Shown in pieces: positions 646 to 6,422 of a stretch of DNA of 12,773 nucleotides. Position numbers and translations under genes: made by a program. Source of the stretch: Actinomycetota bacterium (GTDB lineage Bacteria > Actinomycetota > Thermoleophilia > Solirubrobacterales > 70-9); contig VAYL01000136.1 of the NCBI GenBank assembly GCA_005884305.1, positions 19,268-32,040 of the forward strand, given 5' to 3'. The notes beneath the pieces were generated by a model, which saw only the letters and a list, made by a program, of their open reading frames with translations, was not told where the DNA came from and searched no databases. Position 1 is the first letter of the stretch. Every line of letters starts with the position of its first letter.

Positions 646-2061
646 TCACTGACGGAGATGCCGCAGCGCCGCCTGTGCCGCGTTGGATCCGCAGATCCCA
701 TGGACGCCCCCACCGGGCGGCGTCGCCGCCGAGCAGATGAAGACGCCGGGGATGCCCGTCGCGTACGGGTTGATGGCCAGTCGCGGCCTGAAGAGGATCT
801 GCTTCGGGGTGTTCGCTCCGTTGACGATGTCCCCGCCGATGAAGTTCGCGTTCGCGGCTGCGATCTGGGACGGCGATCGGGAGGCAGACGCGACGATCCG
901 CTCGCGCAGGCCCGGGGCAAAGCGCTCGAGCTGCGCGAGGATCGACGGCTCGGCGTCGCCGTCGTAACCACTCGGGACGTGGGCGTACGCCCAGACCGGG
1001 TGGACGTCGCCGGCGGAGCGCTGCGGGTCGGCGAGGTACTGCTGCGCGACCAGCACGAACGGCCGCTCGGGCATCCGGCCGCGATTGATGTCGCGTTCGG
1101 CTGCCGCAAGCTCCTCGAACGAGCCGCCGACGTGGACGGTGCCCGCGCGGCGGCACACCTCGTTGGTCCACGGGACGCCGTCCTGCACCGCGAGGTCCAG
1201 CTTGAATGCCGCAGGGCCGTGGCGGTAGCGACGATACGCCCGCGCAACCCGAGGCGGCAGCCGGTCGCCCGCGATGTCCACAACCACCTGCGGCGCCAGG
1301 TCGAGCGCGACGACGTCCACGTCGCCGAATTCCGCCAAAGACGTCACGCGGACGCCGGTCTCGATCGTCCCTCCGCGCTCGCGCACAACCACCGCGAGGG
1401 CATCGGTGATCGAGCGCGAGCCGCCGCGCGCCACCGGCCAGCCGAACGCGTGGCACGCGCAGATGAGCGCCGCCCCCACCGCGGAGCTCATCGGCTGGCC
1501 GAACGAGCAGAACGAGTGCGAGGCGACGCCGGCAAAGAGCGCGCGCGTGTGAGGTCCGTCCCATGCCCGGGCCAGCGTCGCGATCGGCATCGATGCCGCC
1601 ACGCCGAAGCGCGCCAGGCTGATCGGGTGGCGCGGCACGTGCAGAATCGGCCGCAGGAGATCGTCGTTCAGGGCGTCGAAAACCCGAGACGGCGCACCGA
1701 ACAGGCGCCGCCAGGCGCGACCGTCGTCGCCCAGGCCGGTGGCCGTCTCGTCGATCGAGCGAAGCATCACGCCGGCAGTGCCGTCGTCGAGCGGGTGCGC
1801 GAGATCGATCTCCGGCCAGCTCCACTCGAGGCCGTAACGCTCGAGGCCGAGCGCCTTGAAGAACGGCGACCCCGACGCCATCGGGTGGACCGCCGAGCAC
1901 TCGTCGTGCAGGACGCCGGGGACCGTGAGCTCGCTGGTGCGCGTCCCGCCGCCGATCGTCTCCTCGGCCTCCAGCACGGTCACGTCCACGCCCTCGGTCG
2001 CGAGCGCCGCGGCGCAGGCCAGCCCGTTCGGCCCCGAGCCGACGACGATGGCGCGGGTCAC
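646..2061 (-). CDS. FAD-dependent oxidoreductase, phytoene desaturase-like (NAD(P)/FAD-dependent)
   Basis: A 471-aa flavoprotein of the phytoene desaturase / COG1233 group. The N-terminus is a classic Rossmann ADP-binding fold: GSGPNG with G8, G10 and G13, then the acidic E31 that would hold the ribose of FAD (VLEAEETIGGGTRT). The C-terminus has the second FAD-contact motif of this group, PGVFICSAATPPGGGVHGICGSNAA. No signal peptide is seen. The start is GTG 2061-2059, placed two residues before the strand leading into the Rossmann motif, as usual for the family. It overlaps the stop of the DUF3556 gene as GTGA and has no Shine-Dalgarno of its own, so translation is probably coupled. Relatives include carotenoid desaturases and many uncharacterised amine- or lipid-oxidising enzymes. 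No crtB or other carotenoid gene is seen nearby, so the substrate is unknown; being paired with a membrane protein suggests a hydrophobic one (inference). Confidence 0.9.
   Translation of the reverse strand: MTRAIVVGSGPNGLACAAALATEGVDVTVLEAEETIGGGTRTSELTVPGVLHDECSAVHPMASGSPFFKALGLERYGLEWSWPEIDLAHPLDDGTAGVMLRSIDETATGLGDDGRAWRRLFGAPSRVFDALNDDLLRPILHVPRHPISLARFGVAASMPIATLARAWDGPHTRALFAGVASHSFCSFGQPMSSAVGAALICACHAFGWPVARGGSRSITDALAVVVRERGGTIETGVRVTSLAEFGDVDVVALDLAPQVVVDIAGDRLPPRVARAYRRYRHGPAAFKLDLAVQDGVPWTNEVCRRAGTVHVGGSFEELAAAERDINRGRMPERPFVLVAQQYLADPQRSAGDVHPVWAYAHVPSGYDGDAEPSILAQLERFAPGLRERIVASASRSPSQIAAANANFIGGDIVNGANTPKQILFRPRLAINPYATGIPGVFICSAATPPGGGVHGICGSNAAQAALRHLRQ
2058..2061 (-). other. 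GTGA stop/start overlap (translational coupling)
   Basis: The TGA stop of the DUF3556 gene (2060-2058) and the GTG start of the oxidoreductase gene (2061-2059) share bases. No purine-rich ribosome site precedes the GTG, so re-initiation by ribosomes finishing the upstream gene is the likely mode. This would fix the ratio of the two proteins. Confidence 0.85.
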
Positions 2062-3812
2062 GTGGCCGGCGCTGGCGCGGGCTGAGGCCGCTGAGACGTG
2101 ATGACCTCTACCGGGAAGTCCCAGGAGCCGTCGAGCCACGGTCCCCGCCGTAGCATCTCGGCGACGTCGACCCAGCCCTCCTCGATCAAACCGGTCGCGG
2201 CGTCGTAAATGCGGTAGCGCTGGCGCTGGATGTGCGCCGGCTGCGACTCGAGGAATACCACCCGCAGGTCGCCCTCGTCGAAACCGCAGCGCTCCTGCAC
2301 CGCCTCGAGCAGGCGCTGGTCGTGGAAGTGCCCGTCGCCGAAATTCCAGCCGTTGACCACGCCGGAGACGATTTCGCCGTCGCGGACCTCGTACTCGTCG
2401 ACGTTTCCCGTCGCCCGATGCGCCAGCCCGAGCAGCGCGCGCCCGTGGCTGTGGAGGGCGCGGAAGCCGATCCCCTTGAACAGCAGGTACTCGGCCGTGT
2501 CGCGGTCGTACATCGCGGCGAGCTGCTCGATGACGACCGGAGCGACCGTGCAGCACGTGCTGTTCAGCCTGTCCTCGCACTGCGTGTCCTTGCGGAAGAG
2601 CCACAGGCTCGACGCCCAATTGCCGGCGTAGTAGCGCATGCCGGGGAGGAACGAGATCTTGTCGGGGTACAGGTTGCCGAGCACCGGGATCACCACGCCG
2701 ATCGCCACCAGGACGACGATCAGGAGGGGGTTGTCGAGGGTGGAGAACGGGACGTCGCCGTAATGCCCGAACAGGAAGCCCAGCCCGAAGATCATGAAGA
2801 GGTTCCACTCCTGCGGCACGCCCAGGGCGAACGTCGAGGTGATGTGGATGTGGAAGAGGAGCATCACGCACAGCGCGATCGTGCCGACGATCCCGCCGCG
2901 GGAGACCATGAGCACGAGCGGCGCCCCGAACTCGATCGCGGTGCCCAGGTGCGCCGCGAACGCCGCGTTCCTGCCGGGTCGCAGGTCCTCCGGGTAGTCC
3001 ACGTACATCCGCGCCTTGGCCTTCCTCGATCGGTTCCAGGGCGTGTTGCTCGTCATCACCGAGGTCACAAACGGGAAGTGGTGGTTGAGCTTCGACGACG
3101 CGGCGCCCCACCAGATGAACAGGAAGACGAACTGCCAGCCGATGATCTGGTTCGACAGCGGAAAGAGCGCGACGACGAGCATGAAGCCGTAGACCTCGGG
3201 TCGCGCGGACAGGAACGAAATCTTGTCCCGCAGGCCGAGCAGCACTAGCAGCCCGAGCAGGATCCCGATCGCGACCGGGTTCAGCCGCCCGGCCGCCGTT
3301 CCGGCGGCGGCCTGGCCGTTGGCGACCAGCAGGTAGATCAGCATCCCGAGGACGGCCGCGTAGAGCGCCACGTCCGCTGGCGTGCGGGTGGTGCCTCGGG
3401 TGAGCGGCACCTTGTCGGGCCACGGCGCGAGCCGGACCGTCCCCGGTCGCAGCCGGTAGAGCACGCCCCCGATCGGCGGGTTGTATCTGGCCGTCAGGGC
3501 CATCGAGCCCGAGCCGAGGCCGAGGATCTCCCACAGCATCGTCCACACGACCGCCTTCTGGAAGACGATCGGCTCGGCCCACCAGTCGGTGACGTTCCCC
3601 AGGCCGCCCAGCCCCGACGTCGTCGAGATCACCAGCGCCGCGCCGACGACGAACACGATCAGCTTCACGACGTACAGCAGGTAGATCACGCCCGGGGCGC
3701 CGAAGCCGTTGACCACCCAGTCCTGCACGACCGGCTTCAGGCGCTCGAGGAAGGGCTTCTGCCTCCACTCGTCGAGGTCGAACGGTGGCGGCTCAGGCTG
3801 GACGAAGCCCAT
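2058..3812 (-). CDS. DUF3556 family multi-pass membrane protein
   Basis: A 584-aa integral membrane protein that I recognise as the DUF3556 family, whose function is unknown and whose usual length is close to this. It starts MGFVQPEPPPFDLDEWRQKP. About ten hydrophobic segments follow in the first 380 or so residues, the first at about 41-62. Between them lie His/aromatic motifs (KLNHHFPFV, then LLFHIHITSTF) that could bind a metal or cofactor (inference). The last 200 or so residues are soluble and contain a Cys group (DTQC, NSTCC) and a region with GWNFGDGHFHDQ. The ATG has a good ribosome site, GGGGGAGG, seven bases upstream. Its first base is the last base of the upstream pseudogene's stop (TGATG), and its stop overlaps the GTG of the oxidoreductase. 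The conserved tight spacing argues that membrane protein and oxidoreductase act together. Confidence 0.85.
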   Translation of the reverse strand: MGFVQPEPPPFDLDEWRQKPFLERLKPVVQDWVVNGFGAPGVIYLLYVVKLIVFVVGAALVISTTSGLGGLGNVTDWWAEPIVFQKAVVWTMLWEILGLGSGSMALTARYNPPIGGVLYRLRPGTVRLAPWPDKVPLTRGTTRTPADVALYAAVLGMLIYLLVANGQAAAGTAAGRLNPVAIGILLGLLVLLGLRDKISFLSARPEVYGFMLVVALFPLSNQIIGWQFVFLFIWWGAASSKLNHHFPFVTSVMTSNTPWNRSRKAKARMYVDYPEDLRPGRNAAFAAHLGTAIEFGAPLVLMVSRGGIVGTIALCVMLLFHIHITSTFALGVPQEWNLFMIFGLGFLFGHYGDVPFSTLDNPLLIVVLVAIGVVIPVLGNLYPDKISFLPGMRYYAGNWASSLWLFRKDTQCEDRLNSTCCTVAPVVIEQLAAMYDRDTAEYLLFKGIGFRALHSHGRALLGLAHRATGNVDEYEVRDGEIVSGVVNGWNFGDGHFHDQRLLEAVQERCGFDEGDLRVVFLESQPAHIQRQRYRIYDAATGLIEEGWVDVAEMLRRGPWLDGSWDFPVEVITSQRPQPAPAPAT

Positions 3813-4517
3813 CAGCTGCCTCCCCCGCTCACGGCCGGGCGCTGTTCCACCGTCGTCAGCGAGTGCGGCCGGAGCCGGATCGGAAGCCGACGGGAGCCGA
3901 CTGGGATGCGGGTGGTGTGGATCGAGACGCGCTGCGGGTGCGCGACGGTGTTGAAGGCGAGAAAGCTCGGCCCGACCAGCCTGTGGACGATTGCGGACTT
4001 GATCGCACTCCCCTCCACGAGGATCGACCCGTGCATCGTATGCGCTCGGTCCTTGTTGACGACGATCAGGTAGAGCGAGCCGTCGGTGTGGTCGATCAGC
4101 GCCTGCTTGCCGGCGAGCGGAACACCAAGCTGCATCCATCGCTGGAGCTCAGCCCGGTGTAAAGGGCTTGGTCCATCGAGCTCAAGTACCTCTTGCTCGG
4201 CCCCGGCCAGCCCCGAAACGACATCCCGTACTCTGACACCACTGCGGGGATTTCGTCGCCGCGGGCGCCCGCGTGAACCCTGACTGACCTCACGCCTGAG
4301 GCCGTTGACGTCGTTGGCGCGCCCGCGCCCTTTGGCGAGCCGCGGTGCGCTCGGTGCGACCGAGTCGGTGGTGCGAGTGGCGACGGTGGTGATGCCCAGT
4401 CGCCCGGGCGCCAGCCGCGACCGCGCCCACCATGATCGAGGCCGCGACGAGCGCTGCCGGTGCGGCTCGGCGCCACCGGCTGATCCCCCTGGAGACTGCT
4501 GCGTCGGCTCCCTGCAT
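3812..4517 (-). pseudogene. Remnant of a secreted glycoside-hydrolase-like protein (frameshifted, internally deleted)
   Basis: Three pieces that read like one protein lie in three different minus frames. (a) From ATG 4517 there is a clear signal peptide: RWRR, then AALVAASIMVGAVAAGARA. (b) From about 4260 to 4155 a second frame reads VVSEYGMSFRGWPGPSKRY and ends DQALYTG; an Glu-Tyr-Gly motif of this kind is typical around the catalytic acidic residue of glycosidases of clan GH-A. (c) From about 4153 to 3812 the third frame continues with AELQRWMQLGVPLAGKQ, then LYLIVVNKDRA, and ends LRPHSLTTVEQ, like the C-terminal beta-sandwich of GH39/GH51/GH79-type enzymes. One lost base near 4153-4156 joins b to c seamlessly (YTG-AELQRW). 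The catalytic barrel between a and b is missing. The remaining stop overlaps the DUF3556 start. The exact GH family is uncertain. Confidence 0.6.
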
Positions 4518-4527
4518 CCTCGAGCTG

Positions 4528-4544
4528 ACGGGAACTTATCCCGT
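4528..4544. repeat. Short perfect inverted repeat in the divergent intergenic region
   Basis: ACGGGA at 4528-4533 is mirrored by TCCCGT at 4539-4544 with a 5-base A/T-rich centre (ACTTA). It lies between the remnant signal-peptide start (4517) and the riboswitch leader, so it is placed like an operator for one of the two divergent promoters. No T-run follows, so it does not look like an intrinsic terminator. Role not known. Confidence 0.4.
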
Positions 4545-4599
4545 GGCCGCGCGCCATAACGCACACGTCGAGTCGAGCGGCTAGGGTGCCGAGCCGAAG

Positions 4600-4742
4600 A
4601 GAACAACTGCCGAGTCCCTCCGTCCCAGACGGGGGGAGCGGGGGAACCAATGGGGACCCGGGAACGGGTCCAGGGGGCGAATCGGAACTGACTCCGTAGC
4701 GCCGCTCTTTCAGCGCGAGCCCGACAGCTAACCCCGTAGGCC
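4600..4742 (+). ncRNA. Cyclic di-AMP riboswitch (ydaO-yuaA class)
   Basis: The conserved blocks of the ydaO/yuaA c-di-AMP aptamer occur in order on the plus strand: CTGCCGAGTCC at 4607-4617; GAGCGGGGGAACCA at 4636-4649; a variable arm with a perfect 7-bp stem and GGAA tetraloop at 4654-4671; GGGGGCGAATC at 4673-4683; a further GCGC hairpin near 4700-4716; and the diagnostic 3' block GACAGCTAACCCCGTAGG at 4723-4740. In actinobacteria this class is known mostly before cell-wall hydrolase and resuscitation-factor genes, and c-di-AMP normally lowers expression. Here the aptamer ends about 20 bases before the ATG of a 48-aa membrane protein. The 5' limit is approximate. The promoter is not clear. 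Confidence 0.92.
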
Positions 4743-4761
4743 CGAGAAAGAGAGGTTCTCG
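4743..4761 (+). promoter_or_regulatory. Hairpin carrying the Shine-Dalgarno in its loop (candidate expression platform)
   Basis: CGAGAA (4743-4748) and TTCTCG (4756-4761) are perfect 6-bp complements. The 7-base loop between them is AGAGAGG, which is the ribosome-binding site for the ATG at 4762. The hairpin begins two bases after the last conserved aptamer base and ends immediately before the start codon. Its placement suggests that the riboswitch acts on translation by changing access to this site. No U-run terminator is visible between aptamer and gene. The coupling between aptamer and hairpin is inference. Confidence 0.6.
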
Positions 4762-4908
4762 ATGACAGAGCGACTGCTCAACCTGATCGAGCCGCGCGGG
4801 GTCGAACGACACGCGTTGCTCGCCGGCTGGATCGCCGGCGCCGTCGCGGGGACGATCGTCGCCATCTGCGCGCTGCTCGTCCTCACCGGGGCGAACATCG
4901 GGACGTAG
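4762..4908 (+). CDS. 48-aa single-pass membrane microprotein under a c-di-AMP riboswitch
   Basis: ATG 4762 to TAG 4906-4908 encodes 48 residues. The first 17 or so (MTERLLNLIEPRGVERH) are charged and could form a short amphipathic helix. They are followed by one hydrophobic span, about residues 18-41 (ALLAGWIAGAVAGTIVAI, then CALLVL), rich in small Gly/Ala residues of the kind that pack helices together. The C-terminus is a short TGANIGT tail. There is no lipobox and no clear cleavage site, so it is more likely a membrane anchor or regulator than a secreted peptide. The AGAGAGG ribosome site is six bases upstream, and third positions are mostly G/C. Nothing else coding lies between the riboswitch and the next gene 215 bases on. 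I do not recognise the family. Regulation of a channel, transporter or cell-wall enzyme in response to c-di-AMP is a possible role (inference). Confidence 0.75.
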   Translation: MTERLLNLIEPRGVERHALLAGWIAGAVAGTIVAICALLVLTGANIGT

Positions 4909-4948
4909 CGCAGCCGCTGACGGACAGCCGGACTGAGTCCGAAACTCG

Positions 4949-4969
4949 CCGCGCGTCCCCCTCGCGCGG
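4949..4969 (+). terminator. GC-rich hairpin downstream of the microprotein gene
   Basis: CCGCGCG (4949-4955) and CGCGCGG (4963-4969) form a perfect 7-bp stem around the loop TCCCCCT, 41 bases after the stop codon at 4908. A second short stem, GGGCC/GGCCC, follows at 4977-4992. There is no U-tract, as is common for actinobacterial terminator-like hairpins, so termination here is plausible but unproven. The rest of the 4909-5092 gap shows nothing else I can support. Confidence 0.4.
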
Positions 4970-5080
4970 TTCGAGAGGGCCAAGGACGGCCCCTGTCCGC
5001 ACGGTGTGTTGGGCGGCGACTTTGTCGACGCAAAGGCATGTCAGGCGGTGAAGGCGCCGCAAATGTGTTCCAGGGGCAGT

Positions 5081-5123
5081 AGGAATAGGCGGGTGAAGGC
5101 TGGTCGATCTGTATGAGCTGACG
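5081..5123 (+). other. pncB start region with an apparent reading-frame break
   Basis: Codons 5100-5123 read LVDLYELT, the conserved start of nicotinate phosphoribosyltransferases, and run into ATG 5124. No ATG, GTG or TTG lies between the in-frame TGA at 5094-5096 and position 5124. GTG 5093 has a well-placed AGGA (5081-5084); dropping one G of the pair at 5098-5099 would give M-K-L-V-D-L-Y-E-L-T-M. The pattern fits a single-base insertion or sequencing indel. A CTG start at 5100 is the alternative. Confidence 0.6.
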
Positions 5124-6422
5124 ATGTCCGCGAGCTACCTCGCGCGCGGGATCACGGAGGAGGCGACGTTCGAGCTGTTTCCCCGGCGGCTGCCTCCCCG
5201 GCGTGACTGGCTCCTGGCCGCCGGCCTCGGCCCCACGCTGGAGCTCCTACGGGAGCTTCGCTTCGGCGAGCGCGAGCTGGAATACCTGCGGTCGCTCGAC
5301 ATGTTCAACGAGGACTTCCTCGCCTATCTCGAGCAGTTTCGGTTCACGGGTGACGTCGAGGCGATCCCGGAGGGGACGATCGCCTACGCCAACGAGCCGT
5401 TGCTGCGCGTCACCGCGCCCCTGATCGAGGCTCAGCTCGTCGAGACGATCCTGCTCAACCAGATCAACTTCCAGACGATGATCGCGACCAAGGCGGCGCG
5501 GGTCGTGCTCGCGGCCGGCGGCGGAGCGCCGGGCGCCGGGGATTGCGTCGTGGACTTCTCGCCGCGTCGCGATCACGGCGCCGACGCGGCGATGAAGGTC
5601 GCCCGCTCGGCCGCGGTCGCGGGCTGCGGCGGCACGTCGAACGTCGCCGCGGCCATGCGCTATGGCCTGCGCCCGGTGGGGACGATGGCCCACTCCTACG
5701 TGCTGGCGTTCGACACCGAGCCACACGCTTTTCGCTGCTTCATCGAGAGCTTTCCGGACCACTCGACGCTGCTCGTGGACACCTACGATCCGCTCGACGG
5801 CGTTCGCAACGCGATCGACGCGGCCGGGGATGCGGGAGTGACGCTCGTTGGGGTCCGGCTCGACTCGGGCGATCTGCTCACGCTCTCGCGCGATACGCGC
5901 CGGCTGCTGGACCAGGCCGGGATGGCGGAGACCCGCATCACGGCAAGCGGCGACCTCGAGGAGGGCCGGATCGCCGAGCTTGTGGCGGCCGGTGCCCCAA
6001 TCGATCTCTGGGGCGTGGGAACCGAGCTCGGCACGAGCCGCGACTCGCCGGTCGTGAACGGCGTCTACAAGCTGGTCGCGCGGCGCCAGGACGGCGAGTG
6101 GGAGGGCGTGTGGAAGCGCTCCGCCGACAAGGCGACCGTTCCGGGCGCGAAGCAGGTCTTCCGCACATACGTCGACGGCCAGATGCGGGGCGACGTCATC
6201 GCGGCAGCGGACGAGCAACTCGACGGGGTGCCGCTCCTGGTGCCCGCGATGCGCGTCGGCGACCTCACGCTGGAGGAGTCGCTGGACGAGATCCGGGAGC
6301 GCGCCGCGGCCGAGCTGACCGCCCTGCCGGAGGACCTGCGACGACCGGAGCCGGCGCCCGAGCCGTATCCAGTGACTTATTCGGAGCGGCTGCAGAGGCT
6401 CGTCGCCAGGTCGGGCACGTAG
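5124..6422 (+). CDS. pncB: Nicotinate phosphoribosyltransferase
   Basis: NAPRTase joins nicotinate and PRPP to give nicotinate mononucleotide, the first step of NAD salvage (Preiss-Handler route), in the cytoplasm. Family motifs, numbered from ATG 5124, are DFSPRRDHGAD (D144, R148, R149), GTSNVAAAMRYG, GTMAHS with the His that is phosphorylated in this family (H190), VRLDSGD (D247-D250, phosphate/ribose binding), and GVGTELGTSRDSP near the end. The 432 aa cover the normal fold, but the family's N-terminal LxDLYELTM box is only partly inside this reading. The same frame before the ATG reads LVDLYELT-M back to CTG 5100, then meets TGA 5094-5096. A GTG at 5093 with AGGA eight bases upstream is one base out of frame. 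The true start is therefore uncertain: a one-base indel, or a CTG or ATG start. The gene ends before a strong bidirectional hairpin. Confidence 0.93.
   Translation: MSASYLARGITEEATFELFPRRLPPRRDWLLAAGLGPTLELLRELRFGERELEYLRSLDMFNEDFLAYLEQFRFTGDVEAIPEGTIAYANEPLLRVTAPLIEAQLVETILLNQINFQTMIATKAARVVLAAGGGAPGAGDCVVDFSPRRDHGADAAMKVARSAAVAGCGGTSNVAAAMRYGLRPVGTMAHSYVLAFDTEPHAFRCFIESFPDHSTLLVDTYDPLDGVRNAIDAAGDAGVTLVGVRLDSGDLLTLSRDTRRLLDQAGMAETRITASGDLEEGRIAELVAAGAPIDLWGVGTELGTSRDSPVVNGVYKLVARRQDGEWEGVWKRSADKATVPGAKQVFRTYVDGQMRGDVIAAADEQLDGVPLLVPAMRVGDLTLEESLDEIRERAAAELTALPEDLRRPEPAPEPYPVTYSERLQRLVARSGT

Follow-up and report, generated by a model that had tools for sequence, protein, structure and literature searches.

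Which gene does a cyclic di-AMP (c-di-AMP) riboswitch control when the only reading frame directly behind it encodes 48 amino acids, and by what means? The question is raised by a 12,773-nucleotide stretch of DNA from an Actinomycetota bacterium (assembly GCA_005884305.1, contig VAYL01000136.1, positions 19,268 to 32,040 of the forward strand), hereafter the window. Comparison with related genomes makes it quite probable that the locus is a stand-alone unit, consisting of a promoter, an aptamer, a lone microprotein gene and a hairpin, and that it works as a translational OFF switch. In this lineage c-di-AMP would thus probably control an uncharacterised microprotein alongside the usual cell-wall enzymes.

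Results

The locus comprises the following features, with pncB judged to lie outside the unit:

4582..4587, plus strand: TAGGGT, a -10-like hexamer (TANNNT), from the positional excess of TANNNT over 254 aptamers
4598..4757, plus strand: c-di-AMP riboswitch aptamer (RF00379), full-length cmscan match, 80.1 bits, E 1e-17
4705..4711, plus strand: CUCUUUC, putative pseudoknot loop arm, 7 Watson-Crick pairs with 4746-4752
4746..4752, plus strand: GAAAGAG, putative pseudoknot tail arm, overlapping the Shine-Dalgarno sequence at 4750-4755 by 3 nt
4750..4755, plus strand: GAGAGG, putative Shine-Dalgarno sequence 6 nt 5' of the ATG, 4-nt match to AGGAGG
4762..4908, plus strand: gene for a 48-aa single-span protein, stop included, from the frame and its relatives; below all Pfam and NCBIfam cut-offs
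about 4945..4975, plus strand: GC-rich hairpin 3' of the small gene, no T-run, from the fold z-score; 7 perfect pairs
5124..6422, plus strand: pncB (nicotinate phosphoribosyltransferase), with NAPRTase domains

The aptamer and its usual targets

The aptamer had been proposed from three ydaO-yuaA motif blocks, all of which are present in the window sequence, and the covariance model bears the proposal out: the match covers RF00379 from position 1 to 134 and scores well over the gathering score of 38. Judged by its sequence this is a real c-di-AMP aptamer, which would be expected to bind the ligand. A diadenylate cyclase domain is encoded in all four genomes of the genus, although in the window's own genome it is partial and lies at a contig end.

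The same genome, which is 73% complete, holds seven such aptamers. Apart from the one in the window, five stand, as inspected by eye, in front of secreted proteins that resemble wall enzymes, and one in front of a 73-aa frame. This single-span frame (L006; aptamer at 1501-1633, minus strand) was considered as a second small target and set aside; its N-terminus matches, with 21 of 32 residues identical, that of a 235-aa protein with peptidoglycan-binding and lytic-transglycosylase-like domains behind an aptamer of genome G001, and it is probably a truncated copy. Across the family, 154 aptamers (7 from the window's own genome and 147 others) of at least 285 matches were read. The scan of their targets leaves out 31, namely the 13 small-frame loci described below and 18 without a closed frame, which was set at 110 aa with a start within -20 to +60. 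The remaining 123 targets include proteins with M23 peptidase (42), lytic-transglycosylase-like (30), peptidoglycan-binding (11), transglycosylase-like (4) and CAP (3) domains; a protein may be counted under several of these, and L006 enters in what is probably the wrong frame.

A small gene directly behind the aptamer

The 48-aa frame that the sequence-only reading had placed directly 3' of the aptamer is indeed there, starting after a gap of 4 nt. Of 50 genomes of the family, 13 have an aptamer followed at once by a frame of this kind, 40 to 48 aa long and with a single membrane span: two of four in the window's genus (g1), ten of 18 in genus g11 and the one genome of g3. The frames measure 48 aa in the window and in G001, 44 aa in the ten g11 genomes and 40 aa in the g3 genome G005, and all 13 start at base +5 to +7 past the aptamer end. 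The distribution is patchy, since the unit was not found in eight of the 18 g11 genomes, two of the four of g1 and any of the 27 other family genomes, several of which are incomplete.

When a profile of the 13 small proteins was searched against six-frame translations of 232 genomes of the order, as had been suggested for asking whether the protein always follows the aptamer, it returned 13 matches at E of 3.6e-9 or lower, every one directly behind an aptamer; the same 13 sequences built the profile, so that they find themselves by construction. The next match (E 7.5e-4) falls inside a 652-aa frame, and none of the next 17 profile loci has an aptamer. A search of 399 genomes of the class and 396 of the phylum, both evenly drawn samples, gave nothing outside the known 13. 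In three other families (f2 to f4), none of 105 aptamers read is followed by a hydrophobic frame of 25-80 aa, and five of the 105 lack both a frame of 100 aa or more and one that runs open into the contig end. A 38-aa single-span frame with a weak profile match (E 0.006) and no aptamer beside it was seen in genus g12 (L208, 110-226), and we read it as what may be another small membrane gene.

The kinship of the small proteins is close within the window's genus and marginal across genera. Used alone as query, the window protein found G001 at E 4e-8 among 61 genomes, together with a weak match (E 0.073) in G013 whose frame proved to lie directly behind an aptamer; among the 232 order genomes G001 was the only one to stand out. 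Scored on 9590 short frames taken from aptamer loci, it ranked G001 first (E 1.5e-9) and a g11 member (L101) second (E 0.004), with the other g11 members at E 0.15 to 6.9 and the g3 protein not separated from decoys. Conversely, with a g11 profile the window protein came ahead of all 9590 decoys, yet only at E 0.086, and the g3 protein came 19th. The small proteins of g1 and g11 are thus likely akin, on statistics that are marginal across the genus groups. Partial synteny, with a cyclophilin common to G001 and three g11 genomes and a sulfatase common to g3 and two g11 genomes, fits such a kinship and does not prove it. The sulfatase-family genes beside the unit (L329 7690-9573, L338 4849-6765 and L331 4613-6217, from G028 and G061 of g11 and from G005) are 37-38% identical; that of G005 runs in the same direction as the small gene and could be co-transcribed with it.

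The small frame as a protein

The frame evolves like a protein in g11, as far as its substitutions tell. All ten g11 frames have 44 codons with zero indels, their variable columns fall on codon positions 1, 2 and 3 in numbers of 24, 17 and 33, and pooled pN/pS is 0.56 over 45 pairs, with per-pair dN/dS from 0.09 to 1.64 and two pairs above 1. Where residues differ, the mean BLOSUM score is 0.31 in the frame of the small gene as against -1.02 +- 0.20 after column shuffling (reached by none of 1000 shuffles), and the other five reading frames score -0.68 to -1.81. For the window and G001 the BLOSUM sum is 90, compared with 31.6 +- 16.9 when shuffled (0 of 2000 reach it); pN and pS are both 0.44 for this pair, so we claim purifying selection for g11 and not for the window's genus. 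It is hardly credible, then, that the frame is untranslated and the unit a short regulatory RNA or a c-di-AMP sponge: the predicted g11 transcript, short and ending in a hairpin, would suit such an RNA, but the protein-level conservation, the fixed 44 codons and a 6-nt Shine-Dalgarno match in g11, where the counterpart of the window's motif reads AAGGAGG, all argue for translation.

AlphaFold2, run on a two-row alignment, predicts for the 48-aa protein a helix at residues 2-8, a break near Pro11 and a long helix at 12-47 (mean pLDDT 79, pTM 0.45). The long helix carries G22xxxG26xxxG30, a GxxxGxxxG pattern that recalls helix-packing motifs. In the alignment of the 13 proteins, in which two GTG starts are typed as M, one proline, two glycines and one leucine are invariant besides the start. 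The basic residues stand N-terminal of the hydrophobic span, which suggests an N-in/C-out topology. None of the 13 members rose over a Pfam or NCBIfam cut-off (best E 0.051 and 0.025, respectively), and KdpF would be among the small-protein families of these collections. Nor did we read homology into profile matches to PDB entries, the best of them a photosystem II repair factor at E 0.0045, or into those to PHROG families, which two of the 13 members gave, at best with E 0.0013 and to a family of unknown function.

Neighbours and the limits of the unit

As had been noted from the sequence, pncB is the next gene in the window, starting at 5124, 215 nt past the stop of the small gene. One could therefore argue that pncB is the real target and the small frame a leader peptide or spacer; the gene is co-directional, and in G001 too a pncB lies downstream on the same strand. 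There, however, pncB is separated from the small frame by an opposite-strand frame resembling TMEM175 (Pfam); the pncB of G003, 72% identical, has no aptamer within 1.5 kb flanks; and pncB was not noticed by eye beside the unit in the listed g11 and g3 neighbourhoods. We therefore consider pncB a very unlikely target. The earlier suggestion that the small gene is the main target is supported, since it is the only immediate frame and recurs in 13 of the 50 genomes while pncB is disfavoured. In seven of eight g11 loci with sufficient flank the next gene is on the other strand, a count that holds for frames picked by GC bias, picking by length only giving other frames in some loci. Upstream of the unit, the window encodes a DUF3556 membrane protein on the minus strand (2058-4139; Pfam E 6e-229).

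Single-span small proteins often serve as accessory subunits of transporters or channels, and the kdpFABC operon begins with one, KdpF. Accordingly, the microprotein could belong, in the way KdpF does, to a transporter or ion channel as an accessory subunit, rather than modulating wall enzymes. Two neighbours lend themselves to this reading: the TMEM175-like potassium-channel frame of G001 (L009 1126-1506), which opposes the small gene (1477-1623, minus) with a 30-nt 3' overlap, stops included, and a Na+/H+ exchanger frame of G067 (L337 6163-6717), co-directional and 3' of the small gene after a hairpin and the hexamer TAGACT. In Bacillus thuringiensis, moreover, kdpFABC is itself under a c-di-AMP riboswitch (PMC6488665). 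Against it, the neighbours vary between genomes (as read by eye from where frames start) and every member stays below the Pfam cut-offs, and we regard the subunit as a possibility on the doubtful side.

The ends of the transcript can be placed with differing success. TANNNT hexamers upstream of 254 aptamers are concentrated close to them, with 243 counts within 20 nt and 21 in the bin from -30 to -21, compared with 2-7 in each 10-nt bin between -140 and -31. The TAGGGT of the window would put the transcript start near the first base of the aptamer; a simple generic scan for sigma-70-type promoters found none at 4400-5300. The GC hairpin that had been described between the small gene and pncB is present, but modest in the window: the RNA at 4909-5000 folds at -46.2 kcal/mol (z -3.1; three of 200 shuffles are as good), and its longest perfect stem has 7 pairs and no T-run behind it. 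It is a possible transcript end. In g11 the hairpin is clearer, with a perfect stem of 12-17 pairs at most 72 nt from the stop in eight of ten loci; the ninth (L061) has by our reading a 13-pair stem with one G-U, giving nine of ten loci with a GC hairpin of at least 12 pairs, and the tenth (L166) runs into the end of its contig. No such hairpin stands behind the small frame of G001 or G005, where the longest perfect stems have 3 and 4 pairs.

A predicted pseudoknot overlapping the putative ribosome-binding site

A pseudoknot is mentioned for the crystal structure of the c-di-AMP riboswitch (PMC5393176), and the loop and tail of the window aptamer appear, on our reading of the printed sequence, to match it. 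Its conservation was analysed in 248 aptamers with an exact CAGCTAAC core, 11 of the 105 aptamers of families f2 to f4 having been dropped for want of that core. A longest-helix test proved weak, exchanged partners also pairing well, and was replaced by tests in a near-fixed register. Six pairs with at most one G-U form in 214 of the 248, and this pairing fraction of 0.863 drops to 0.644 on average (maximum 0.690) once tails are exchanged. Aptamers with the common loop CTCTTT pair 6/6 with their own tail in 110 of 137 cases. Those with other loops, of 46 kinds, do so in 47 of 111, as against a mean of 3.7 and a maximum of 9 in 200 draws with CTCTTT-type tails, and a 6/6 match to the common loop would be possible for only 12 of these 111 tails. 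In the ten small-gene aptamers of g11 the loop reads CTTCTTC and pairs with the tail GAAGAAG; this loop recurs in three other aptamers. By these counts, which ignore kinship among the sequences, the predicted loop-tail pseudoknot covaries over the 248 aptamers.

The same pseudoknot bears on how the switch works. Premature transcription termination, reported for Streptomyces coelicolor rpfA and Bacillus subtilis ydaO (PMC10117811, PMC9960051), could act on the same unit and the same target in place of hiding the ribosome-binding site. The 4 nt between aptamer and ATG leave no room there for a terminator, however; a simple scan found no T-run terminator-like site at 4400-5300; and the pseudoknot tail overlaps the Shine-Dalgarno sequence. 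Termination thus seems unlikely in this unit. From that overlap, the covariation and a translational precedent in Corynebacterium glutamicum, where the c-di-AMP riboswitch of nlpC is reported to act on translation and pairing with the ribosome-binding site has been proposed (PMC9960051), we infer a translational OFF switch.

Discussion

The preferred reading, a translational OFF switch in front of a lone microprotein gene, can be put together as follows. Transcription would run from the promoter through the aptamer and the 40-48 aa single-span gene to a GC hairpin that is clear in g11 and weak in the window. Bound c-di-AMP would hold the loop-tail pseudoknot and so mask the ribosome-binding site that overlaps the tail. 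When c-di-AMP falls, the tail would be freed and the microprotein made together with the peptidoglycan hydrolases whose genes bear the aptamer. Probably inserted N-in/C-out, it could then use its Gly-zipper helix to act on some other component of the membrane or wall.

The earlier idea that the microprotein links c-di-AMP to an envelope process is a hypothesis drawn from its presumed co-regulation with peptidoglycan hydrolases, which carry the same aptamer class. As a tentative extension, the small proteins may form a lineage-specific class of c-di-AMP-controlled membrane microproteins, Gly-zipper proteins of 40-48 aa, each the sole output of its riboswitch, that adjust the peptidoglycan hydrolases, or a cation transporter, of the same regulon. 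A recurring unit with an uncharacterised microprotein as its sole product would extend the c-di-AMP regulon to a new kind of output and would show that riboswitches can flag small genes that are easily missed. The microprotein would also be a small and testable candidate for the means by which cells keep wall growth in step with turgor.

The aptamer class and its wall-enzyme targets are already known, and the actinobacterial targets named in excerpts of the literature are cell-wall enzymes (PMC9960051, PMC10117811, PMC8079986). No lone microprotein target is named in the titles and abstract openings among the matches listed, from which we claim no absence from print. The riboswitch of B. thuringiensis kdpFABC belongs to the same class (PMC6488665), but in that case the small protein is the first product of a transporter operon, whereas no transporter follows in the window. 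Streptomyces rpfA and other hydrolase genes with ydaO leaders (PMC10117811, PMC8079986) share the class as well, and many family aptamers described here likewise precede wall hydrolases; according to the same excerpts their targets are larger secreted enzymes and rpfA is controlled by transcription termination, in both of which the window differs. Another close system is C. glutamicum nlpC (PMC9960051), which has the same aptamer class and is reported to act on translation, with pairing to the ribosome-binding site proposed there. As far as that source describes it, the nlpC riboswitch governs a cell-wall peptidase at the head of an operon, whereas the one in the window precedes a lone 48-aa membrane protein.
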